Origin: Encephalitozoon hellem ATCC 50504
Taxonomy: Eukaryota > Microsporidia > Unikaryonidae
Direction: 5' to 3'
NCBI RefSeq assembly: GCF_000277815.2
Contig: NC_018474.1
Location: forward strand, 149,234 to 213,233
DNA length: 64,000 nucleotides
Notes under the pieces: model-generated
Told to the model about the DNA's origin: nothing
Databases searched by the model: none
Seen by the model: the letters and a program-made list of their open reading frames with translations, nothing else
Program-made: the position numbers and the translations under genes
Part shown: positions 22,606-64,000 of the stretch, piece after piece
Numbering within the stretch: the stretch's first letter is position 1
Layout: every line of letters starts with the position of its first letter

Positions 22606-25161
22606 ATGAGGGTGAATCTGCTAGCAATGCTCATTGCTGCTGTAAGCAACAGAAAAGTTTTTTATATTAATTTAAAGGATGTCAAGTCGGGTGAGGATTT
22701 GCTGAGCCAGCTGTTTGAAAAAGCACACCATCCTCCAGAAGATACAGCAAATGAAGTGTCTGAAGGATCTGGCACAGTATCCTCTATGCATATGTCGAAT
22801 TTGGCCCAAAAATCAGAAGAAAAGGCGCCTTCGCCAGCCGCATCTACAGAACAGAAGGCAGGAGGCCAGAAACAGTCCGGAAACAACGATGCAGCGAAGA
22901 AGAAGCAAGAAGGGGATAAAGAAGCCAAAAAATCCCAGGACAAGGCTAAAAAGGAAGAAAGTAAGCAAAAGAAAGAGGAGCAGAAGCAGCAAAAAGAGGA
23001 AAAGCAGAAGCAGAAGAAAGAAGAACAAAAGCAGAAGAAGGAGGAGCAAAAACAGAAGAAAGAGGAGCAGAAGCAGCAAAAAGAGGAAAAGCAGAAGCAG
23101 AAGAAAGACAGTCAAAAACAAGAGGAGCAGAAGCAGCAAAAAGAGGAAAAACAGAAGCAGAAGAAAGAAGAACAGAAGAAGCAAAAGGAAGAGAAACAAA
23201 AAGAAAAGGAGTCGCAATCTCAAAAGAAAGATGCAAATCAAGAGAAACAAAGGGAAAAAGATAAAAAAAAAGCTGAAAAGGAGGATTCTAAGAAGAAGGC
23301 AGATACAAAGACAGAAGCCAAGAAGGTGGATAAGGAAAAACAAGAGCCCAGTACCATCAGAGATAAAAAAGACAAAGACAAAACATCAACACAAGAAAAA
23401 ACCAGTAGCAGTGATGAGGCCAAACCCAGCACAAAAAAGCTGCAAGAAGAGAAGTCTGCTAGTGCCGAGTCTGGGCCATCCTCCAAAGCCATAGAGTCCA
23501 AAAGCAAAGATGGGATTTCCAGTACCCAGGCCTCTTCAAATGCAAGTATTTCTGGAAGTACTTCAATGGCTTCATCTTTAAACAAATCCTCGTCCATGGT
23601 ACCAGTTTCCACTAGTGCTAGTAGCATGATGTCTACAAGACTGTCTTCAAGTGCTATTGCATCAAGCAGCATAGGATATTCGTCATCAGTACCTCTGTCA
23701 TCCATCATGTCCTCATCTATATTTGGGCACTCGTCATCAGCATCCTTTGCTCCGTCCTCTGTACTGTCATCTGCCATCACATCATCAATAGTATCACAGA
23801 TATCATCCAGCATATCCTACTCCTCAGTTGCCGATGTTCTCAAGAAGGCATCTGAGGTGAATAAGATCAAGAGCCTGAGCTCAGTGGAGGTCAACGATGT
23901 CTTAGGGAAATGCCAGGAGTGTGAGAGGGTAGATCAGGTGCTTGTTTACAAGGATGGAGACCAGTACACCGACTATTCCGGGAATATTAAATTCCAACAA
24001 AAAGATGGTAAGTTGGTTGACAGCTCGGGTCTATTTGTTGGGAAAGATTGTGGATGCTCAAAGGAGGAAATACCTCAAATCGGAAAAATAACTGGGACGG
24101 GACTATATCAAGACCAAAGCGTTAACAGCATAAGTTGCCAGAAGCAGGCCAATGCTATTGACAAATTATATTCGTCTGCAAGCAACATGGCACAAAATTC
24201 AGGAAGCATACCAGGAAAGACACTTTCGGCAGCTTCATCTCAGAATTCAAGCGCTGGAGTGGTATCGAGCAAATCTTCCGGAACAAATTCACAAATTGGA
24301 GGCAGCCAGGGGCCTCAGAGCATGCAGTCAGGGGCTTCAGCAGGAAGTAAACAAGGATCTCAAAGCGTACAATCGGGCTCCTCGGCAGGAAGCAAGCAGG
24401 GGCCTCAGAGCGTACAATCGGGTTCTTCACAGAGCAGCCAAAGTGGTTCCGCCCCTCAAGGCTCACCGTCTAGTCCTTCTCAGCAAGGTGGGCAAGCACC
24501 CCAGGGATCATCTTCTCCTCAAAGTAACGCTCAGGAAAGCCCTGGGATTTCCACAACTCAGCCTATAAAGATCGAGCCTGGAAGCCCTGACTACATACCT
24601 CCCAAGATATCTATAAAAGCAGTTAAAGTTAAATATGGAAACTCATGCGGAGACAGCTCAGGAATTGCGATCAGCTCAGCATTCATACAAGCACCTCCAG
24701 AAAAGGTCACTGTAACAGAGCCAGCAAAGACTGTTACAAAGACAGAAAAGCTTCCACCAGTTACCGTCATAAAAGAGCTAACTGTTGTAGAGCCTCCTTG
24801 CACAATCGAGAAGGAGATATTCATCACACAAGAGCCTGAAAGTATAGTCGAGGAAAAGACTGTTACAAAGCCAACCACGGTTGTAGAATATAAGACTGTG
24901 AATATTACGGCCACCAAAACTGTGGTACAAACAATAGCACCCCCTAATAATTCTGAGGATGGGAAAGTTCCTGTTGCAACATGCACCCTGACTGATGACT
25001 TTAACGAAAAAAAGCCCAGAGAAGATGTTACAACGATTAATACAACCATAGTGGTGGAAGATCCAGAAGATATAGAATGTGAACAAGAATGTGAATGCCA
25101 AGAGGATAACTGCGAGAATCCTTGCGATAAGATAAAATGTGTCTCCAAGGACGAGTTTTGA
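22606..25161 (+). CDS. Secreted Lys/Gln/Ser-rich protein (gene A of cluster)
   Basis: 851 aa. A short hydrophobic start (V-N-L-L-A-M-L-I-A-A-V-S) suggests a signal peptide. Residues ~95-260 are Lys/Gln/Glu repeats. Residues ~270-420 are Ser-rich. Residues ~435-495 form a small domain (V-L-V-Y, T-D-Y-x-G, K-F-x-x-x-D-G-K-L-V-D, T-G-T-G) shared with the gene at 27019. Residues ~565-640 are Gln/Ser/Gly repeats. Residues ~705-790 are Val/Thr-rich with T-V-T-K motifs. The tail holds C-E-C-x(4)-C-x(3)-C. There is no membrane anchor. The pattern suits a spore wall, polar tube or other extracellular matrix protein. It does not match the known small PTP1 or PTP2 layout that I recall, so the function is left open. 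Confidence 0.8.
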   Translation: MRVNLLAMLIAAVSNRKVFYINLKDVKSGEDLLSQLFEKAHHPPEDTANEVSEGSGTVSSMHMSNLAQKSEEKAPSPAASTEQKAGGQKQSGNNDAAKKKQEGDKEAKKSQDKAKKEESKQKKEEQKQQKEEKQKQKKEEQKQKKEEQKQKKEEQKQQKEEKQKQKKDSQKQEEQKQQKEEKQKQKKEEQKKQKEEKQKEKESQSQKKDANQEKQREKDKKKAEKEDSKKKADTKTEAKKVDKEKQEPSTIRDKKDKDKTSTQEKTSSSDEAKPSTKKLQEEKSASAESGPSSKAIESKSKDGISSTQASSNASISGSTSMASSLNKSSSMVPVSTSASSMMSTRLSSSAIASSSIGYSSSVPLSSIMSSSIFGHSSSASFAPSSVLSSAITSSIVSQISSSISYSSVADVLKKASEVNKIKSLSSVEVNDVLGKCQECERVDQVLVYKDGDQYTDYSGNIKFQQKDGKLVDSSGLFVGKDCGCSKEEIPQIGKITGTGLYQDQSVNSISCQKQANAIDKLYSSASNMAQNSGSIPGKTLSAASSQNSSAGVVSSKSSGTNSQIGGSQGPQSMQSGASAGSKQGSQSVQSGSSAGSKQGPQSVQSGSSQSSQSGSAPQGSPSSPSQQGGQAPQGSSSPQSNAQESPGISTTQPIKIEPGSPDYIPPKISIKAVKVKYGNSCGDSSGIAISSAFIQAPPEKVTVTEPAKTVTKTEKLPPVTVIKELTVVEPPCTIEKEIFITQEPESIVEEKTVTKPTTVVEYKTVNITATKTVVQTIAPPNNSEDGKVPVATCTLTDDFNEKKPREDVTTINTTIVVEDPEDIECEQECECQEDNCENPCDKIKCVSKDEF
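22975..23167 (+). repeat. Three near-identical 46-nt Lys/Gln/Glu-coding repeats
   Basis: Copies lie at 22975-23020, 23062-23107 and 23122-23167. Copies 1 and 2 look identical and copy 3 differs by one base. Smaller CAGAAGAAAGAG-like units fill the spaces between them. All stay in frame within the 22606 gene. Confidence 0.85.
24310..24435 (+). repeat. 45-nt in-frame repeats, about 2.7 copies
   Basis: Units start at 24310, 24355 and 24400. They encode G-P-Q-S-x-Q-S-G-x-S-A-G-S-K-Q, and the third copy is incomplete and drifts into a Ser/Gln stretch. Confidence 0.85.
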
Positions 25162-25307
25162 CTGAATAAATTAGGATATCTACTTTAAAGCTTTTATAGA
25201 CTCCAAGCTGGCCATGGCCCGATGATTGCAATCTTCAAACTTAGTTTTTGATATAAAACAATCTGAAACTTACCGGATATAAAGAAAGGCGATATTAAAA
25301 CAAAACG

Positions 25308-26885
25308 ATGATATTAGCCTTGCTTTTGCTTGGAAGTATTGTAAGGGCCGATATATTCGACAATGCCAGCCTAGAAAAAGTTCTAAGTGAAGGCCTGAAG
25401 AGCGACAGCAGTGGTAATTCGGGAGCCAATAGCACCTCTTTATCCCAAGCACCTAAGGAGGAAAAGTTGTCTTCAACCCTTACCGGGGCTTCACCCTCCT
25501 CCTCGTATAGTATACCGTCTGTAAGCCAAGCTTCAATATCGACAGTAACCTCTGGAAAAAAGAATGAAGAGGAAACGCCGATTATAATAATAACTCAGGA
25601 AAACTCAAAAAGCAAAGGAGGAAAAGAACAAGAGGAAAGGATAGCCAGCATTGTGAAAAATGCGATTTCTGGTACTAAGTCTGGTACTAAACCGAATACA
25701 GGATCCGCCATCAAAAAGGAGGCAGAAGGAGGTGAGGAGTCTGGTAGTAGTGAGATTAAAGAGGCATCAGATGGAGGAGACAAGAAAGGTAGTCCAAACT
25801 CCATTGGAAGCACTCTTTCTCCTGTTGTGGCAAATGCCGTTGGAGGTAGTAGCAATTTAGAAGATTCCTATTGGACAACTGTTATTGTCGATAACAAACT
25901 GAGAAAGGTCAAGGTCAATGTCAAGGTCATGACTGTTGTGGAAAGCATCGATGATGCAGTAAAGTGCACCTCCAAAGATGGTGATACAAAAGAAAAGGAA
26001 AAGAAGTTCAATTTCTGGAATAAGGCTGAGGAAAAGTCTAAGGGTGGAGACATTCCTACCACTGTTTCTGTTCCTTATAGCAAAGAAAAGGATTCAAAGA
26101 AAACAACGTCTCAGAGCTCTAAGACTTCCACAAAGAGCAGCAGTAGTGATGGGAAGGCAAAGAAGACTGCTGAGGCCTCAAAGTCCGTCGAGCCTGAGGT
26201 TGCTTCATCCTCTGTTTTGTCTGGAAAAAGCAGCGAATCCAAGAAAGAGTCTGAAAGCACAAGTGCATCTGTGAAGTCTAGCATTGCCAGTGCATCAGAA
26301 AGCACTGGAACTTCGAAGAAAGGCACCAAAGATGAGTCTATCAGCTCAAAGCACAATAAGTCTGCTGGATCTACAAAACCGTTCTCCGAATCATCTACAA
26401 AGCATAAAGCTACAGAAAGTAAGAGCATTACTGAAACTGCCACAAAAGAAAAGAATAAGAAAAAAGAATCTGTGTCAGCAACGCTTTCAAGCCGTGCTTC
26501 ACAAGGGCTTTCTTCGGTGTCCAGCGTGGCATCTTCAAAGAATAAGAAGAAAGCTTCGTCTTCCAAGGAAAGTGCAAGCGCGTCATCCAAGATGCCAACT
26601 TCTAGTATATCTCATAGCTCAAAGAAATCAGGAACATCAAAAGATGCTAAGGACACAAATGCCTCAAAGTCGGAAAAGGAAAGCAAGTCAGGATCGGAGA
26701 AGAAGGAAGTCAATCCCGAGATGAATGAGCTTTTCTATGTTCTTAAAAACATGCCTGGAAAAGTTAGCATCAGCAATCCCGAGGGAAAGATGTTCGTGGA
26801 AGGGAACTTTGTTGCGCTAAAAGAAGAGAAGTTGAAAAACAAGAAATTTAAGTTCTCAGGCTACATCCAAGCAGAACATAGTTAA
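25308..26885 (+). CDS. Secreted Ser/Lys-rich protein (gene B of cluster)
   Basis: 525 aa. The signal peptide is clear (I-L-A-L-L-L-L-G-S-I-V-R-A). Residues 20-180 are polar. A short Val-rich ordered segment follows at ~185-220 (W-T-T-V-I-V-D ... V-K-V-M-T-V-V). Residues 240-470 are Ser/Lys/Thr-rich low complexity with many potential O-glycosylation sites. The last ~50 residues (G-K-V-S-I-S, E-G-K-M-F-V-E-G-N-F, F-S-G-Y-I-Q) look like a shortened version of the small domain of the genes at 22606 and 27019. It lacks the Cys signature at its end. It lies 146 bp after gene A. Probably extracellular; the role is unknown. Confidence 0.8.
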   Translation: MILALLLLGSIVRADIFDNASLEKVLSEGLKSDSSGNSGANSTSLSQAPKEEKLSSTLTGASPSSSYSIPSVSQASISTVTSGKKNEEETPIIIITQENSKSKGGKEQEERIASIVKNAISGTKSGTKPNTGSAIKKEAEGGEESGSSEIKEASDGGDKKGSPNSIGSTLSPVVANAVGGSSNLEDSYWTTVIVDNKLRKVKVNVKVMTVVESIDDAVKCTSKDGDTKEKEKKFNFWNKAEEKSKGGDIPTTVSVPYSKEKDSKKTTSQSSKTSTKSSSSDGKAKKTAEASKSVEPEVASSSVLSGKSSESKKESESTSASVKSSIASASESTGTSKKGTKDESISSKHNKSAGSTKPFSESSTKHKATESKSITETATKEKNKKKESVSATLSSRASQGLSSVSSVASSKNKKKASSSKESASASSKMPTSSISHSSKKSGTSKDAKDTNASKSEKESKSGSEKKEVNPEMNELFYVLKNMPGKVSISNPEGKMFVEGNFVALKEEKLKNKKFKFSGYIQAEHS

Positions 26886-27018
26886 CGAATTAAACATTCA
26901 ATTTCGTACTTCTTTTTATTTATCTCAGGGAAAAAAGCCTTCTGAAACAGCTGAAACAAGTTTCAGAAAAAGACTGCTGTCAATATAAGGACTTAAATAT
27001 GTAATTATCTCCTTTTCA

Positions 27019-27960
27019 ATGAGAACAATCCACAAGTTCGGAATAGCAAGAGTCATATACCTTATTTTGATTTGTAGATACGCTTCTATTTTGTGCCAAG
27101 GGGATGATGAAAGTACCGTTGAAATAGTTCTCTTTAATAATGCCACAGAGAAGATCAAAAGCAAGAGCGATGTGGAGAAAGAACCTACAGCAGAGAACAA
27201 GTCTAAGGAACTTAGAAACATACTAACGGCATTGGTAAGCCATCTTTTGGCTGGAAGCAGACTTAAAAACAACCTTCTCAAGAACTATGATGAGGCTAGC
27301 CAGCTCAATATTACAAAGGGAGACAGCCAGAAGCCTGATGATCCTGGGAAGGCTGAAAAGACTAGCAGCCCTCCACCTCAGGAACCAACTATAGAGATGC
27401 TAGAGAAAATAAAGAGGATCCCTGTAGGGTATAGAACATTCTGCTCCTTCGTTCAGAACCTAGATCTTATCAGGGACAAGCTAAAAAATAGGCCTGGAAT
27501 TAGAAAAATTCAGAATATTTTGGTTTACGAAGAGTATCACCTTACTGATTACTGGGGAAGGCTGAAGTTCAAGAAAGAGGGTGACAAGCTTGTGGACGAA
27601 ACTGGATACTTTGAAGGAGTCAAGGTCAATAGCTTCGAGGATATGCTAACCCAGGGGAGAATGACCAGGACAGGATTTGTCCAGAAAAAGGAAATAGGGG
27701 AGAATGAGGTAAATGAGAATCTAATAACCATGAAGCTCCTTCTTAGTGAGATTGCTAAAGAAAAGAACACCTCAATTCATAACGTGGTTAATGAAGGATG
27801 TAATATGTCTATGGTCGAAGAGCTAGTCTTTTATGGAAATAGCCCATCAGCTCACGATAATGAAATAGTGCATGTCTGTGTGTGCTCTGACTCATTCTGC
27901 AAAGAACCATGCAAAGACATTGTTCCAATGAAAATGGAAAACTTAGAGTTTAGAGATTAG
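27019..27960 (+). CDS. Secreted protein with shared domain (gene C of cluster)
   Basis: 313 aa. The hydrophobic start (V-I-Y-L-I-L-I-C-R-Y-A-S-I-L-C-Q) fits a signal peptide. Residues 30-125 are Lys/Glu/Ser-rich. Residues ~168-216 carry the shared domain (I-L-V-Y, T-D-Y-W-G, L-K-F-K-K-E-G-D-K-L-V-D, G-Y-F-E-G, T-R-T-G-F). A helical region follows. The C-terminus has C-V-C-x(4)-C-x(3)-C, the same spacing as gene A. Of the three it has the least low-complexity sequence and shows the family core best. Size and Lys content recall polar tube protein 2, but I see no convincing PTP2 signature. Confidence 0.82.
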   Translation: MRTIHKFGIARVIYLILICRYASILCQGDDESTVEIVLFNNATEKIKSKSDVEKEPTAENKSKELRNILTALVSHLLAGSRLKNNLLKNYDEASQLNITKGDSQKPDDPGKAEKTSSPPPQEPTIEMLEKIKRIPVGYRTFCSFVQNLDLIRDKLKNRPGIRKIQNILVYEEYHLTDYWGRLKFKKEGDKLVDETGYFEGVKVNSFEDMLTQGRMTRTGFVQKKEIGENEVNENLITMKLLLSEIAKEKNTSIHNVVNEGCNMSMVEELVFYGNSPSAHDNEIVHVCVCSDSFCKEPCKDIVPMKMENLEFRD

Positions 27961-31255: not shown

Positions 31256-34108
31256 TTAAACTACAGATTGTGGCGACATCTCCTTTTGGGTTCTAGTAAC
31301 AGTGCTGAGGGATGAGACCTCTATATCATTTACTAGTGGCGCCAGCTTTTCAACAATATCGTCTATAACCGTGTCTTCTGAGACTAATAGACTTTCATCT
31401 GGGATCTTTTTTTCCTTTAACTTATCCACAATCTTATCAATACTCTGTTCTTTGCTTTCTTCAGGGCTCATTGTTCGTGGATATACCGAAGAGGTCGATA
31501 GGTTAGAGTATGATGTAGAGGACTTCTCTTGTGCGTCTAATGACGAAGATGGCCTTTGTGAAATAGAGGCATTTATGCTTGCTGTTGAGAAAAGAGATTC
31601 GGTGCTGTTTGCCATTGTCTTAGCAGGTGTGCTGCTTCCATCGTGAATAGACGACCTCGATATAGTAGGAGATATGGACTCAGAGTTGGAGGTACTTTCT
31701 TTTAAGACAATTCTTTGATCCTGTATATCTCTAAGCTTCAATAACTTACCTCCTATCTGAACAACTTTATCAGTGAATTCATTCAACTTTCTCTCGATAT
31801 TCTTCACACGCTCTTCAACAATAGAGCTTACAGCACTAAGATGCATGCTACTATCAAAGTCCCTTATTACCGTAGTTCTAACAACATCTGTTATGGTTCT
31901 GTGTCTTGTGCCCTTTCCACCGTCCGCAGTTTCAGAATGTGCCCCACTCATATCATTTTTTGTGTCAAGGAAGCTTGCAACAGTTGGGTGCTGCAAGTCT
32001 TTAAATCTTCTCTCCTTTCTAAGCTGCCTTTCCAGGTCAAGCTCTTTCCTACCTGTGGGCTCTTTAAGGAATGAAACTATAGGGGAAAGGGAATGCTGCT
32101 CAGGCTCTCTGTCATTTGAAGATTCAAAGTCCCCTAGAACTGGAGACATGGCTTCGTAAGATTCACTGTTGTTTGTATTATCGTCTTCTAAACCTTTCCA
32201 TAGCCCATCTCCCTTATAGGCCAATGATGAAACCTCTTCTATAATGTCTTCTCTGCTTCGAGTTTTAGTCTTGTTGGCATCAGCAACGTCGTGTGTTCTA
32301 TCCTTCCATCTACCGTCTAAGCTTGATTCTATGCTGTAGGGCATGAGTCTTGACTTAGATCGCCTCTCTTCCTTCAAGCGGGATGCGATACTCTTTTCAT
32401 AAATAGCCCCGTCTCTATACAGTTCATATATTTTCTTCAATGATTCAAGAGCACTATCCTCGTCTCTTTCTTTTCTTCTGGTAGACATCAAAATTTCGAT
32501 AAGATTCTTATATCGTTCTTCGTTTGCCACAATTTTCTGATATATATTGTCCAGTTTCTTTTCATAGCTTTCATAAGATGGCTCTAACCCCTCTTTAGAT
32601 TTAGGATCCAATGGCGTAGGAAGGTAGGGGCTTTTTATCTCTAAAGGATGGATAATAGAAACAGCAGATGTATGGCCTTTGGTCCTTGAGGCTATTTTTG
32701 TGACCGTGGTTGTAATCTCCTTGATCACAGTGCTATTGCCAGGAAGTGCCCTTCTGCTCTCAGAAATAGTGGTACTATTTTTTAGCATGTCAAAAATGCT
32801 TCTTATGAGTTCTCTGGTGTGTTCATCGTAATACGAATTGTTTGTCTCTTTTGTGGGAAGCATTGCTGACGAGGATTTACACGTAGAAGTTGTGCGAATC
32901 CTCTCAACAGTAGTTGTTATTGTTCGTAGCGCAGCGGACACTCTAGAGCTTTGTGATGTCTCACTGGACATTGAGCTTGCACTTCTTGTACTGTTCTGTG
33001 CCGGTATATTAAGGAGACTCTTAATTTTTTCAAGAATCTGAATGTCTATCAAAGTGTTGGCCATCCCGTCAGCCATGGGTTTTCTAGAACTTCTGCTCTG
33101 CACTGATGATGTGATATCAGGCTCTTGGTCCTCAAAGTTTGCACTATTTCTGTTACTATCAGAGTTTCCTACAAACACGGTTTTTAGAATAGTCTTCACA
33201 GTATCGTCAGATCTTTTGCGAGGAGACCCTTTTTGCCTTGTAACAGTTCTAGTTGTCAATATGGTTTGTGTTTCTGTTTTCCTTACTGGCTCGTTATGCT
33301 CTTGCTTCTCAACCTTGGCTGTGGTTGTAGTAGTTGTTATGCTAGTTGTTTTCAGAGTGATTATAGAAACAGAGCCTATGGAGTCCCTTTTAGATGCATT
33401 AAGCCCTTCCTCAGAAGCGGGCTCGAAGGTTTCCTTAATGAATATCGGTATCATGTTGTTTCTCTCTAGAATTATAGGTTCCGAATGGTCGATAGGTATT
33501 CTTGATGGAGCACTTGAGAAAAAAGAGGTATTGTCCATAGCATCCACGTGCGGAGTGGAATATTCAACTGGGCTTTTTGTGCAGATTCCTTCTATTCTAG
33601 GATTGTTGAGAACATATTCATAAAGAATTTTCATATCATCGTTTATACTCGGTTGCTCTTTTGCTCCACGAATCCTATTAGCTTGACTGTACAGGTCACA
33701 AATTTTATACGAAGATCCGTTATAAAAAATGGTATTGCTGTCAGAATCAGAAATCCTTATTGACGGCTTTCTTGCTGTGATATCGTCATTTCTAAGAGTT
33801 TGGGCATTGCTATTTCTTTCAATGTTCTTTTCTATGAACCTAATAAAAGGCCTTTCTTCTTGTTGTAAAATCTTTCTGATGGTCACCACAGACGGCTTTT
33901 TCGTTTCCAGAGTCCCTATAGCTCTAGAGATTCTGTTTCCAGGCACATATGCCTTTAGACAGGAGTCTTTACACCTTTGATCATCAATTCTGCAGTTGCA
34001 GAGCATCTCCTTCGCAGTGTTACCTTCGTTAGCTTGTAGCTTTACGATCTGGGCAGTTACGTATATACCCAAAAAAAGGAATATGACAGACAGCTGAATG
34101 CCAAGCAT
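31256..34108 (-). CDS. Large secreted Thr/Ser-rich protein (gene D)
   Basis: 950 aa. The signal peptide is clear (Q-L-S-V-I-F-L-F-L-G-I-Y-V-T-A). Right after it, residues ~36-50 hold C-N-C-x(6)-C-x(3)-C, the spacing seen near the ends of genes A and C apart from a longer middle gap. Residues 60-190 are a polar region with I-F-Y-N-G-S-S-Y-K-I-C. From 225 to 480 there are many Thr clusters (T-T-T-T-T-T, T-V-T-R, T-I-T-T-T-V-E). The rest is Ser/Arg/Glu-rich with coiled-coil-like stretches (N-I-E-R-K-L-N-E-F). There is no membrane anchor. It is probably a mucin-like extracellular protein. Confidence 0.8.
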   Translation of the reverse strand: MLGIQLSVIFLFLGIYVTAQIVKLQANEGNTAKEMLCNCRIDDQRCKDSCLKAYVPGNRISRAIGTLETKKPSVVTIRKILQQEERPFIRFIEKNIERNSNAQTLRNDDITARKPSIRISDSDSNTIFYNGSSYKICDLYSQANRIRGAKEQPSINDDMKILYEYVLNNPRIEGICTKSPVEYSTPHVDAMDNTSFFSSAPSRIPIDHSEPIILERNNMIPIFIKETFEPASEEGLNASKRDSIGSVSIITLKTTSITTTTTTAKVEKQEHNEPVRKTETQTILTTRTVTRQKGSPRKRSDDTVKTILKTVFVGNSDSNRNSANFEDQEPDITSSVQSRSSRKPMADGMANTLIDIQILEKIKSLLNIPAQNSTRSASSMSSETSQSSRVSAALRTITTTVERIRTTSTCKSSSAMLPTKETNNSYYDEHTRELIRSIFDMLKNSTTISESRRALPGNSTVIKEITTTVTKIASRTKGHTSAVSIIHPLEIKSPYLPTPLDPKSKEGLEPSYESYEKKLDNIYQKIVANEERYKNLIEILMSTRRKERDEDSALESLKKIYELYRDGAIYEKSIASRLKEERRSKSRLMPYSIESSLDGRWKDRTHDVADANKTKTRSREDIIEEVSSLAYKGDGLWKGLEDDNTNNSESYEAMSPVLGDFESSNDREPEQHSLSPIVSFLKEPTGRKELDLERQLRKERRFKDLQHPTVASFLDTKNDMSGAHSETADGGKGTRHRTITDVVRTTVIRDFDSSMHLSAVSSIVEERVKNIERKLNEFTDKVVQIGGKLLKLRDIQDQRIVLKESTSNSESISPTISRSSIHDGSSTPAKTMANSTESLFSTASINASISQRPSSSLDAQEKSSTSYSNLSTSSVYPRTMSPEESKEQSIDKIVDKLKEKKIPDESLLVSEDTVIDDIVEKLAPLVNDIEVSSLSTVTRTQKEMSPQSVV

Positions 34109-59375: not shown

Positions 59376-60347
59376 ATGGATGCCGGGATGCACTTAATAG
59401 CTTGTTTGATGTGTGCTGCAGAGGCTCATTGGACACCTGCTGGCGCTTCTGACCACTCGTTCTGCGGCCCGGGCCTGTCAGGCGAGTGGTTTAGTGGCGC
59501 GGAGGGGTGGGCCCTAGAAATGGGACGACTGTGGAGGGCGGCAAGGAGCTGGGCCTCAGTGTTTGGGCGGAATCTCTGGAGAGAGTTTGATGGGAGCGAG
59601 GAGCTGAAGGGGGCCTGTGAGAGGATGGCAAGGGGGTGGATGGGATGCAGGGATGCTGTTGAAGACACGCGTCTGTTCAGGGTTGGAAGGAGGATGATGG
59701 AGGTGTCGAGCAGCGTGATGAGGGCCTCTGATGCCTCGATTGGGATTGCGCTTAGGGCCGGAGGAGGCCTACTGTGCCGGCGAAGGGAGTTCCAGAGGAG
59801 ATTGGACATGGTGTTCAGGATTCCGCAGTACTACGGAGGGGTGAGGAGTTCTGGGCCGTCTGTGGCAGCCAAGGATGGGAGTGGGGAGTGTTTGAGGAAG
59901 AGAGGGGGGCTGGTTGAGTACAGGGGAAGTGTGATGAAGAGGATATGGAGGCTCTGCTCTGTGGTTAAGTCCCGTCTGTCCTCTGACGAGAGGGCCATAG
60001 AGGAGATTGAGAACAGGTGTGTGGGGGAGATACTTAGAGGTCTGGGGTCCGAGCCGGTGAGTGGGCTGTGCACAGAAGAAGGGATGGAGGACTTGAAGAA
60101 TCTGGCCCTTGAGGTGGGAGGAGGAAGAGATGTGTGGACGACGGACATCAGGAATACCTCGACGTCTGGGAGTGTGGCAAAGGGGATGTTTGAGTGCGAG
60201 TTTGAGGCTGAGATTGCAACTGGGGATAGGATGTGTGTCGGGGGCGATAGACATGTGTTTCTCATTCGGGGGAGGTTTGTGAATGGTGCGGGGTGTGAGG
60301 ATGGAGGGTGGTATCTCTCTTCACTTGCCTGGACTCGGATAGGATGA
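59376..60347 (+). CDS. Putative secreted lineage-specific protein
   Basis: 323 aa; the first ATG is at 59376, but the Met at 59388 gives a cleaner signal peptide (H-L-I-A-C-L-M-C-A-A-E-A). The body is rich in Arg, Gly, Ser and Trp and looks mostly helical, with scattered Cys. DNA here is GC-rich and G-biased. It resembles no family I know. Position and composition suggest one of the fast-evolving protein families found toward Encephalitozoon chromosome ends. Long open frames on the other strand are discounted. Confidence 0.5.
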   Translation: MDAGMHLIACLMCAAEAHWTPAGASDHSFCGPGLSGEWFSGAEGWALEMGRLWRAARSWASVFGRNLWREFDGSEELKGACERMARGWMGCRDAVEDTRLFRVGRRMMEVSSSVMRASDASIGIALRAGGGLLCRRREFQRRLDMVFRIPQYYGGVRSSGPSVAAKDGSGECLRKRGGLVEYRGSVMKRIWRLCSVVKSRLSSDERAIEEIENRCVGEILRGLGSEPVSGLCTEEGMEDLKNLALEVGGGRDVWTTDIRNTSTSGSVAKGMFECEFEAEIATGDRMCVGGDRHVFLIRGRFVNGAGCEDGGWYLSSLAWTRIG

Positions 60348-60365
60348 GACGTAGAACAGTATAAT

Positions 60366-60734
60366 TTATTCGTTGTAAGCAAATATAACCTTTGGGAACT
60401 TACTTTCTCTTGCTCTTTGCCTCCCTGTCTTTCTTTTGAGCTGGTCCTTTGTGAGGGCCTGTCTCTTGGCCCTGTTGAGCTTGGGCCTAAGGACCTTCGG
60501 AAGCTTGTGGACCGGGGTTCCCCTGTACTTCTCGACGACCTCCTGGAGAATCTTCTCGCGTCTGACGGTGAGGATGCGTGCCAAGTTCTTCCTGGCTGTC
60601 CTGATGTCGTCCTTGCCGACGTCTCCGCTGTTCTTCTTCTGGCGGAGGCGCGCCAGCTCTGCCTTGACCTCGTTAGCCTTCTCCTCAAGCTGCTCAACAT
60701 CCAGCTGCCTGAGATCTGATGCCTCGATCTTCAT
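60366..60734 (-). CDS. RPL35: 60S ribosomal protein uL29 (L35)
   Basis: 122 aa, the usual length. uL29 sits near the exit tunnel and helps dock SRP and the translocon. The start M-K-I-E-A-S-D-L-R is followed by the helical hairpin with E-L-A-R-L-R-Q-K-K, then I-R-T-A-R-K-N-L-A-R-I-L-T-V and Y-R-G-T-P-V-H-K-L-P-K-V-L-R-P-K. I start at 60734, directly after GCCCTA; the open frame continues upstream without family match. Confidence 0.95.
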   Translation of the reverse strand: MKIEASDLRQLDVEQLEEKANEVKAELARLRQKKNSGDVGKDDIRTARKNLARILTVRREKILQEVVEKYRGTPVHKLPKVLRPKLNRAKRQALTKDQLKRKTGRQRARESKFPKVIFAYNE

Positions 60735-60832
60735 TAGGGCTTCTGATGCAAAAAGATTTGAACGCAAAAATCGTGCTTGGGGAGCGAGGGGTGGAATATG
60801 CGTGTCTGGCAAAGGACATTTATTGGCTTGGG

Positions 60833-61039
60833 TCAGGGAGGGGCGGCGACAAAGAGGATGTTTTCCCCCCTCAGAAAGAGGACCTTGCTGTGGGAGCCCT
60901 CTACGGACGAGTGTGTCAGCATGAGGTTTATGTGCTCGTCGAACCCCTCGAGGATTCCTGCATAGACCTCTCCGCTCTTTGTCTTTATTTCGACCCTCTC
61001 GTTCAAGTACATCTTCAGGAAGCAGAACGGGTCGAGCAT
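60833..61039 (-). CDS. LSM3: Sm-like protein Lsm3
   Basis: 68 aa, against about 89-102 in other eukaryotes. Lsm3 is a member of the Lsm1-7 (mRNA decay) and Lsm2-8 (U6 snRNA) rings. Sm1 is seen as L-N-E-R-V-E-I-K-T-K-S-G-E-V-Y-A-G-I-L-E-G-F-D-E-H-I-N-L-M-L; Sm2 as V-L-F-L-R-G-E-N-I-L-F-V. It ends A-A-P-P, like Lsm3's V-A-P-P. The insert between Sm1 and Sm2 is shortened. Other Lsm paralogues cannot be fully excluded. Confidence 0.75.
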   Translation of the reverse strand: MLDPFCFLKMYLNERVEIKTKSGEVYAGILEGFDEHINLMLTHSSVEGSHSKVLFLRGENILFVAAPP

Positions 61040-61137
61040 GGAAGTCGTGGGGCCTCTGGAAAATTTTGTTATTGGGGATGTGTGAGGAGGCTGTGGACGG
61101 AGGTTTCTGGATTTATGGGGGGAGTGTGCAGCCCTTT

Positions 61138-61626
61138 ATGAGGTATTTGGAGTTGAGCTGCATATCGAAAACAAACAAACTCTTCCAGAAGCTTCAGGAC
61201 CTCAACCCTCTTCTGAACATCGAGATGGAGGCATACTCCTGCAAGTCGAGCAGGAAGCAGAGGATGGAGATGCATGTGGAGAAGCCGCTCAGGTATCTTG
61301 TGTCTGCACTTGAGCTGCGGTTTCCGGACTATGACTTCTCTGGGGAGTCGTGGAGGTCTTTTTCGCGGAAGTCGATGGGGGAGGTTGTGAACGAGGTTGC
61401 GTACTCGATAAGCACTGTGCACAAGAACAACTCTGATGTGAAGGAGTTTGTGGGGTTTCTTGAGGTGATTCTCCACAAGTCTGTTGACCTGAGTGAGTGC
61501 ATGATATTTTCGTATGAGAACAGGATGGGGCCCTTTGAGGACTGCTTCTGGTACTTTTCGTTTCTGTTTTTCAACAAGAGGCAGAAGAGGGTGGTGATGC
61601 TGAATGCGTTTATGAACAGGAACTAG
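61138..61626 (+). CDS. MAF1: RNA polymerase III repressor Maf1, compact
   Basis: 162 aa; yeast Maf1 is 395 aa. Maf1 binds Pol III and shuts down tRNA and 5S synthesis under stress. The first block (L-N-P-L-L-N-I-E-M-E-A-Y-S-C-K) matches the family's box A. The C-terminal block has F-P-D-Y-D-F-S, C-M-I-F-S-Y-E-N, C-F-W-Y-F-S-F-L-F-F-N-K-R-Q-K-R-V-V, the box B/C pattern. I start at 61138, where GCCCTTT lies just upstream; the frame extends to 60979 without support. The acidic phosphorylated linker of the yeast protein is absent. Confidence 0.87.
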   Translation: MRYLELSCISKTNKLFQKLQDLNPLLNIEMEAYSCKSSRKQRMEMHVEKPLRYLVSALELRFPDYDFSGESWRSFSRKSMGEVVNEVAYSISTVHKNNSDVKEFVGFLEVILHKSVDLSECMIFSYENRMGPFEDCFWYFSFLFFNKRQKRVVMLNAFMNRN

Positions 61627-61742
61627 TGTAAATATGGATGTATTAAATAGTTTGAGTCTAGATGTGTGTGTGTGAATAGGTTTCTGTGCACAATTTATGT
61701 GGCGGGATGCAAATATGTATGTATGATAGATGCCCATAGGAT

Positions 61743-62591
61743 ATGAATAGAGCCGACAGAGGGAGTGTGTTAGAGTGCAGCACAGTTTTTAGTTCTAAGA
61801 GGAAAGCGAAGGATGGGGAGGGATACGATGTGGGCTCTGAGTGCCCACATGGTTTTAGCCTAGAGCTGGAGTCTGAGTCGTCTGAGGCAACGGATGTGGG
61901 GATTCTGCTATTTTTTATGACTGTTCTTGTAACGCTCTTCAAGAATCCATTAGCAGATTTGTTTGGAGGCTTTGCGATTGAGGCTGTTGGGGTTGTGAAT
62001 CTGGGGTACCTGGTTCATTCGACGTTTCTGAAGCTATGTGCTAGGGCTGTGGATTTGAGGGAAGATTCGTGGAAGAGCAGTCTAATGGTTGTGCACTTGT
62101 CCTTGCATCTGGTGGCGATTGAGGCGATTGGAGTTAGTATCTTTAGTTCTAGAGGAGGATCAAGGATGCTTATGAATAACCTTTGTAGGAATCCGCTGGG
62201 GATTTTTGTTGCCTTGATACATATTCTTCATGGGCAGGATGCCATGGAGCTTAAGTATAGCAATTATGTCTGCGGGAGTATACTGAGTGCTGCTTGGACT
62301 GTGGTGTTTGTTGCGAGCTATAACTATGAGCACGATATGAGTGATAGTCTAGTGAGACATATTTTCCTGTTTATGTTCCTTCATGTGGTACTGTATAGCA
62401 TGGAGAATGAGATTGTCAAGAGTTTAAGGATTTCGAAGAAGAAGTTGAGGAAGATCCAAGGGTTTGCAAGGATAATACCGTGCATAGTGTGCAGTGTAGC
62501 AGGGTACTATATGCTGGGCAGGATACTCACGAAGCGACTCTCGTACATGGAGATGGGCAACTCTGATTTATCATTCTCATTCTTATTTTGA
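61743..62591 (+). CDS. Polytopic membrane protein, lineage-specific
   Basis: 282 aa. About 45 polar residues are followed by six to seven hydrophobic helices (G-I-L-L-F-F-M-T-V-L-V-T-L-F, V-V-H-L-S-L-H-L-V-A-I-E-A, H-I-F-L-F-M-F-L-H-V-V-L-Y). The C-terminus is hydrophobic (S-F-S-F-L-F). I see no transporter or enzyme motif. Position among unusual genes suggests one of the polytopic families expanded in Encephalitozoon, but similarity to a named family such as DUF2463 was not evident. Confidence 0.6.
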   Translation: MNRADRGSVLECSTVFSSKRKAKDGEGYDVGSECPHGFSLELESESSEATDVGILLFFMTVLVTLFKNPLADLFGGFAIEAVGVVNLGYLVHSTFLKLCARAVDLREDSWKSSLMVVHLSLHLVAIEAIGVSIFSSRGGSRMLMNNLCRNPLGIFVALIHILHGQDAMELKYSNYVCGSILSAAWTVVFVASYNYEHDMSDSLVRHIFLFMFLHVVLYSMENEIVKSLRISKKKLRKIQGFARIIPCIVCSVAGYYMLGRILTKRLSYMEMGNSDLSFSFLF

Positions 62592-63104
62592 GATATTGGG
62601 GTGTGTGCTGTGGAAGTAGTTGAATAAATTGATGGAGTGCTTGTGTTTTTTGGGCGAGTATGCAGGTGTTTGCTTGTGAGATGGAGTGTGGGATGCGATG
62701 AAGGCTGCATGCATCTTTGTATGAGGAGAGTGGATGCCTGGTGTTCTTTGGATACCTCTTTTAGGCAGTTGAATGATTGGAACCCGATGGACACATGGCG
62801 ATGAGTGGAGGGTCAGGAGATTAACTGAAAGGTTTGCTTTAGAAGGGAAGCGAGCGATGGGGTTAGGAAGTTCATAAGATGGTTGAAAAGGTTTAATGGC
62901 AAGGACATTGTAGGAGGTGGAGTGATTAGTGTGTGACATCGATAGTCTGGGTTTATTGTATGACTGGGATCGGTTGTAAGAAGGTACGGTGTGTGTTTGC
63001 ATATTATCTGGATTGATGAGGTTGTAAACGATGTGTATAGCCAATGATGTTTGGGGGAATGGAGGAAAGGAGAAGGCACTAAGGCGAGTAAAGGAGTGTG
63101 GCCC
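62592..63104. other. 513-bp intergenic region, no gene recognised
   Basis: This is the longest spacer in the window. The plus strand is strongly rich in G and T and poor in C. All plus frames are broken by stops. A 153-codon open frame on the minus strand looks like a by-product of this bias. No tRNA, repeat or motif was found. It could be a decayed gene. Confidence 0.6.
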
Positions 63105-64000
63105 ATGAAGCTTGGAGTGCTACAAGCAATGATTCTACTTGGGTGGATGATCTGTTCTTCGTCGATAGAAAGCCATAAGGTTGTCAAACTAAGAGGGTCT
63201 GAAGGATGTATACTGTTTCCGATAATTTTTTCTGGAACCAATGCGATTGCACTACCGACCACGAGGCTCAAGGATGTTCGGAGGGGCGGAGACGAAGAGA
63301 TGTATGTTAAAGAGTTTATCGGTTGTATTGGGGACATGGTGCTGTCATTTACTGCTTTTGATATATGTTGTGAAGGGGACGGGGTGTTTGAGGCTGTGTT
63401 TGTAAGGGAGATGAAGAAGCACCTGCAGAAGGTGTCGAATGATGCATTGAGTGTATATGCAAGAGGAAAAAGCACTCTTAGCGAGGTGCTATTGATGGTG
63501 TACGATAGATTGTTTGAATGCGATGTTCGGGATGAGGGAAAGAGAAGGATGACGGTGTTTGGAAAGTGCCTTATTTCTGAGGCTGATAGAATGATTCGTG
63601 AGATAGGCGATGATGTAGATGAGAAGGAAAGGGAGGAGAGAGAGAATTTTTGTAATGTGATCAAGAAACGTGGAGAGAAGTGTTGCAATTTAAAGATGTG
63701 GAAGCGTATAGTTTATGCTGAAAGTGTAGTGTGCAATGCGTCTGTGAGTCTGTATAATAAGCTTTCTGGTGAGGAGCTTTTGGGGTTGTTGGCTGAAGGA
63801 TGCATGAGAAAGGATTTTAAGGAGGAAGGAGTTAGCGAGGAGGAGCTTAACGATAGAGGATATATGGAATACAGTATTGTTGACATTAAATTATTTCTAG
63901 ATACATATATTAAGCACGGGTGTGAAGTTGTGGAAGAGATAGTTAGGCAGATGATGCTGGGGAAGGATGGAAGGGAGATAGATTCTAAGTATGTTGAAAA
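63105..64000 (+). CDS. Putative secreted protein, 3' end beyond window
   Basis: At least 298 codons, open to the window edge. The ATG at 63105 follows TGGCCC. The start is a signal peptide (L-G-V-L-Q-A-M-I-L-L-G-W-M-I-C-S-S-S). The body is helical, charged and Cys-containing, with D-A-L-S-V-Y-A-R-G-K-S-T and a Lys/Glu-rich stretch (E-K-E-R-E-E-R-E-N). Size, signal peptide and location recall the DUF1609/DUF1686-type secreted families of Encephalitozoon chromosome ends; this is an impression, not a demonstrated match. Confidence 0.6.
   Translation, partial: MKLGVLQAMILLGWMICSSSIESHKVVKLRGSEGCILFPIIFSGTNAIALPTTRLKDVRRGGDEEMYVKEFIGCIGDMVLSFTAFDICCEGDGVFEAVFVREMKKHLQKVSNDALSVYARGKSTLSEVLLMVYDRLFECDVRDEGKRRMTVFGKCLISEADRMIREIGDDVDEKEREERENFCNVIKKRGEKCCNLKMWKRIVYAESVVCNASVSLYNKLSGEELLGLLAEGCMRKDFKEEGVSEEELNDRGYMEYSIVDIKLFLDTYIKHGCEVVEEIVRQMMLGKDGREIDSKYVE

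Follow-up and report, generated by a model that had tools for sequence, protein, structure and literature searches.

Encephalitozoon hellem is a human-infecting parasite that belongs to the microsporidia, for which the set of proteins building the spore and its injection tube is still incomplete, these proteins differing strongly from species to species owing to fast divergence. In this study, a stretch of 64,000 nucleotides from contig 7 of this species (positions 149234-213233, hereafter the window) was analyzed, the assembly as a whole comprising 2,251,784 bases in 12 contigs. The focus was on three consecutive genes, here called A, B and C, two of which, A and C, share a domain. All three are intact open frames on the plus strand (Table 1), as had been proposed in an earlier interpretation of the same DNA made from its letters only (hereafter the sequence-only reading). 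A signal-peptide-like hydrophobic start, which had also been proposed, was found by a hydropathy scan in each of A, B and C, and past this start no 19-residue stretch of any of the three exceeded a hydropathy of 1.6. In E. hellem, A itself has a weak start (best mean hydropathy 1.35), while the A relatives P0016 and P0017 have plain hydrophobic starts. The claim that the three proteins are rich in lysine, serine and glutamate applies to A (S 17.0%, K 14.0%, E 9.3%) and to B (S 22.1%, K 15.6%, E 9.3%). For C (K 9.9%, E 9.9%, S 6.4%) it is correct for lysine and glutamate, but not for serine.

From its N- to its C-terminus, A is composed of K/E/Q-rich repeats, a Ser-rich stretch, the domain, a second low-complexity stretch, a V/T-rich part and a Cys-rich tail. 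B is Ser/Lys-rich and contains two conserved blocks, one of which is listed in Table 1, the second well conserved one covering residues 466-525. For C, 13 homologues were found besides the window's own record. Among the proteins of E. hellem, P0002 is 100% identical to C over the aligned length and P0003 is 97% identical.

Two further features of A were observed. In-frame tandem repeats are present at 22963-23208 and 24307-24422 (plus strand) and belong to a K/E/Q-rich type with units of 21 to 87 bases and an S/G/Q-rich type with a unit of 45 bases; these repeats could vary from strain to strain. In addition, protein A ends with KDEF (25147-25158, plus strand), which we take to resemble a retention signal of the endoplasmic reticulum. 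As the C-termini of three A relatives differ from KDEF, this ending is probably due to chance.

Table 1. Coordinates of genes A, B and C and of features within them (positions of the window)
Feature	Residues	Position	Strand	Length	Basis
Gene A		22606..25161	+	851 aa	single open frame
Shared domain in A	440-510	23923..24135	+		hhalign against C, shuffles, own-genome protein search
Cysteine motif CxCx4CxxPC of A	829-840	25090..25125	+		motif scan, tail profiles
Gene B		25308..26885	+	525 aa	single open frame; alignment of 11
Conserved block of B	185-215	25860..25952	+		comparison with six B homologues (identity 0.63 to 0.97)
Possible short relative of the C domain in B	496-521	26793..26870	+		profile comparison with C
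Gene C		27019..27960	+	313 aa	single open frame
Shared domain in C	162-230	27502..27708	+		profile match, shuffles; beta-rich in AlphaFold model
Cysteine motif CxCx4CxxPC of C	287-298	27877..27912	+		motif scan

The domain and the cysteine motif shared by A and C

For the comparison of A and C, profiles of four and 14 sequences were used, respectively, with the C family excluding the window's own record (P0001) and retaining the near-copies of C, P0002 and P0003. The two profiles were aligned by hhalign over 69 columns with 33% identity (E 1.4e-14), corresponding to a domain of about 70 residues. A repeat of this comparison yielded an E-value of 7.1e-14 and a score of 83.5 versus 22.8 for the best shuffle, with none of 400 column shuffles reaching the score. 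The A profile matched the C family in full (14 of 14 sequences, E 2e-19 to 5e-9), the divergent relative P0014 being the nearest, and the C profile matched all four A-family sequences (E 2.5e-16 to 9e-12). Likewise, A and C were the sole strong matches when the 323 stop-to-stop segments of the window were searched with hidden Markov models (HMMs). Here, the mutual matches had E-values of 9e-11 and 1e-13, while those of the next best segments were 0.8 and 0.03. Single-sequence protein searches of the whole genome with C, P0014 and the A domain returned A, C and one weak match on contig 9 (E 0.005, P0014 as query). The latter was taken as a chance match because it lies antisense to another frame, which presumably encodes pyruvate dehydrogenase E1.

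Profiles, shuffles and genome searches thus agree that the segment aligned between A and C in the sequence-only reading is real, and the HMM matches between both genes are mutual. As judged from these comparisons of sequence, A and C descend from one ancestor and have the domain in common. The N-termini of the three proteins showed no mutual similarity (77, 189 and 32 of 200 shuffles reached the scores), and the same was true for C beyond the domain compared with A beyond the domain (70 of 200 shuffles). On viral contigs, 58 stretches fitted a pattern, none of which encodes a relative.

The C-terminal cysteine motif CxCx4CxxPC occurs in two of the 323 reading-frame segments of the window, namely those of A and C. 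It is present in 14 of 14 C-family sequences; within the A family the spacing is x4 in two of the four sequences and x5 in the other two. The number of invariant cysteines amounts to six in the C family (n = 14) and to twelve in the A family (n = 4). As a separate observation, a looser form of the motif, CNCRIDDQRCKDSC, lies near the N-terminus of the product of a secreted-type gene at 31256-34108 (minus strand), a protein of 950 aa which is S/T-rich and has a strongly hydrophobic start; no conclusion was drawn from this.

An AlphaFold model of C, based on 14 sequences, had a mean predicted local distance difference test score (pLDDT) of 67.6. Means of individual blocks ranged from 83 to 94 over residues 141-270 (90 to 94 over residues 161-230) and from 33 to 55 over residues 1-120. 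The core at residues 141-270 is hence predicted with confidence, and the segment shared with A consists mostly of strands in this model. A Foldseek search with the whole C model yielded no PDB match at E 0.001 (none of 135 listed to E 10) and no viral match at E 0.001. VIA-align rows were confined to the low-confidence N-terminal part of C. The identity of C to its counterpart in E. cuniculi is 46% over residues 1-120 versus 82% over residues 121-313, and the low-complexity arms evolve fast beside slow-changing parts.

In Pfam, A and B were without a match at E 1, and the one match of C (E 0.077) lay below the cut-off of the respective family. At E 0.1 none of the four A-family members and none of the 11 B-family members had a match, and the C family exhibited stray weak matches only, the best of them (E 0.013) in one of 14 sequences. 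As far as Pfam goes, the domain can therefore be called undescribed, as had been claimed. Two matches of A were rejected as being caused by low complexity, namely SMC_prok_B (E 2.5e-05; 22.3 bits versus a cut-off of 567) and, for the A profile, Nop58 (E 0.0007, profile positions 60-140).

From 18 rows of the domain, of which 16 were different as the near-copies P0002 and P0003 had been kept, a tree was calculated and rooted at its midpoint. A and C each formed one side of a branch with a support of 100/100. As both sides include members of Encephalitozoon and of Ordospora, the duplication should be older than the split between these genera, which would make A and C ancient paralogues. Over residues 425-515, the A proteins of E. 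hellem and O. pajunii share 69% identity, compared with 33% between A and C.

The neighborhood of the three genes recurs in related species. In O. pajunii, A, B and C correspond to the consecutive tags HK407_08g13280, 08g13290 and 08g13300, and B and C correspond to Eint_071520 and 071530 in E. intestinalis and to EROM_071460 and 071480 in E. romaleae. Seven of ten B homologues share their largest-contig size with a C homologue, which fits linkage as far as it can be read from records instead of DNA. No A orthologues turned up in other named Encephalitozoon species; as scoring was limited to the 7994 candidates with the most shared words, this search is uninformative.

Gene B and its relation to A and C

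A homologue search for B, in which the 7992 candidates sharing most words were scored, yielded ten homologues and thereby a family alignment of 11 sequences. According to the sequence-only reading, B carries a shortened copy of the domain at its very end and would thus be a third member of the family. Indeed, B residues 496-521 align with C residues 197-222 over 26 columns and without any gap (E 0.0016 and 0.00056), and in neither of the two tests did any of 400 shuffles reach the score. When B was compared with the profile of the C core, one of 800 shuffles reached the score, and none of 800 did so for the joint A and C profile. Full-length B placed the match at the same position (E 0.0047 and 0.0092), reversed B gave a lower score, and B is adjacent to A and C in the genome.

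However, the comparison of the A and B profiles remained at chance level, with 265 of 400 shuffles reaching the score. In the HMM searches of the window segments C was not among the ten best for the B profile, nor was B among the ten best for C or A. The cysteine motif is absent from all 11 sequences of the B family, each of which contains only one cysteine or none at all. The AlphaFold model of B had a mean pLDDT of 35.2 with no residue above 70 and values of about 50 in the stretch from 496 to 521. It places strands at 494-502 and 513-521 with no helix between them, whereas C has a short helix there. The middle of B did not show any similarity to the cores of A and C (199 and 66 of 200 shuffles reached the scores). 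When the middle of B was compared with the V/T-rich part of A, the score exceeded those of 200 of 200 shuffles, but the match spanned just 6 columns and was dropped.

The match to C (E 0.0006 to 0.009) stands against the chance-level comparison with A and the negative HMM searches, and a shortened copy of the domain in B is hence not established. True membership of B in the family as its third protein appears somewhat unlikely on this evidence, a question which is separate from that of location. Gene B shows conservation as well as linkage to C, and it may be just a linked neighbor. The idea of a tandem-duplicated family is consequently borne out for A and C, without the membership of B being established. 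Overall, the sequence-only reading held for A and C and for the gap in Pfam, and was over-confident on B.

Possible roles in the spore or at the host interface

The sequence-only reading had considered roles in the spore wall, in the polar tube and at the host interface plausible. A and C make up a secreted-type family that is new, though of a familiar sort. Like these two, the polar tube protein pairs PTP1/PTP2 and PTP4/PTP5 of Encephalitozoon are products of clustered secreted-protein genes, with a biased composition and invariant cysteines (clusters and cysteines as described in PMC10229552). The same source reports clusters for the polar tube genes ptp1-ptp2 and ptp4-ptp5, and release of PTP1, PTP2 and PTP7 only with dithiothreitol (DTT). 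By analogy with these tube proteins, A and C, with B in their cluster, most likely have a structural role in the wall of the spore or in the polar tube, an assignment that we make tentatively. It also draws on the homology of A and C, on their invariant cysteines, on the lack of hydrophobic stretches past the start, on the faster change of the arms and on the cluster itself. In this view A and C are ancient paralogues within a conserved cluster which also holds the secreted-type gene B, and all three products would take the secretory pathway. Disulphides would be formed by the invariant cysteines, the domain of A and C would bind either itself or a partner, and the arms, being charged and Ser-rich, would act as extended spacers that are perhaps O-mannosylated.

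Among the polar tube proteins, PTP2 was the one compared with A, B and C by sequence, through its Pfam family PF17022, which finds PTP2 on contig 6 of the E. hellem genome (129.5 bits, cut-off 27). PTP4 of E. hellem is EHEL_071080. PTP6, known from Nosema bombycis and from relatives in Encephalitozoon, is likewise secreted, Ser-rich and without a known domain. Its relatives differ in their tags, Eint_081680 and EROM_081710 being of the chromosome-8 type, as opposed to the above-mentioned tags of B and C (PTP6 and its relatives as given in PMC7493173).

Several points weigh against this assignment to spore wall or tube. No tool result bears on the location or the timing of A, B and C, and at E 1 none of them matched PF17022. 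The signal-peptide assignments come from a hydropathy scan without a trained predictor. The A family contains four sequences only, and the comparison between the tails of A and C by profile (score reached by 3 of 400 and by 3 of 200 shuffles) is by itself of modest significance only.

Ranked second is the idea that the growing parasite exposes A, B and C to its host, at the surface of the sporoplasm or in the parasitophorous vacuole, and that the domain binds a host molecule. This appears somewhat unlikely, but would fit the signal-peptide-like starts of A, B and C, which come without an anchor. Furthermore, PMC6703431 describes SSP1 (EHEL_111090), a signal-peptide protein from a cross-linked polar-tube preparation of E. 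hellem, as located on the sporoplasm and at the periphery of the vacuole; 22 signal-peptide proteins are reported for this preparation, antibodies having been pursued for 18 of them. These proteins resemble A, B and C in their species, in unknown domains and in a signal peptide, to which the signal-peptide-like starts of A, B and C would correspond. SSP1 itself differs by its tag. However, the slow change of the folded half of C, given its 82% identity to E. cuniculi, suits a structural part at least equally well.

If A and C are structural proteins of the wall or the tube, their domain might be an unrecognized assembly module of the apparatus by which microsporidia infect. Together with the adjacent B, both proteins would then be missing components of the wall or tube that are joined by the domain and locked by the CxCx4CxxPC tail. 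We consider this extended proposal quite unlikely.

Very improbable, finally, is that C is an enzyme, as its public names, putative geranyltransferase in E. hellem and putative guanylyltransferase in E. cuniculi, would have it: the Encephalitozoon telomere-to-telomere paper (PMC10158259) describes functions inferred partly by structural homology, and we guess that both names originate there, but the names conflict, C has no Pfam match over the cut-off, no sequence of a solved structure was found below E 0.6, and the Foldseek search described above returned no PDB match at its threshold. The enzyme names now carried by gene C are accordingly without support from the searches made. None of the locus tags and prefixes searched occurred in the main texts of the literature searched, those prefixes used for E. 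hellem and E. cuniculi having been guessed from neighbors. A conserved secreted-type cluster with one confidently modelled domain provides named candidates for the existing spore and polar-tube proteomes of E. hellem.

Neighboring genes and base composition

On the upstream side of A there is a gene on the minus strand that encodes a P-type ATPase with a P5-ATPase domain, and another whose product has stretches of strong hydrophobicity. The downstream neighbor of C, on the minus strand, was read as encoding a threonyl-tRNA synthetase. At the end of the window (60001-64000) the content of guanine and cytosine (GC) is 0.469 and the GC skew is strong (0.365), compared with a GC content of 0.381 to 0.443 in the other blocks. 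This rise perhaps marks the approach to a subtelomere.

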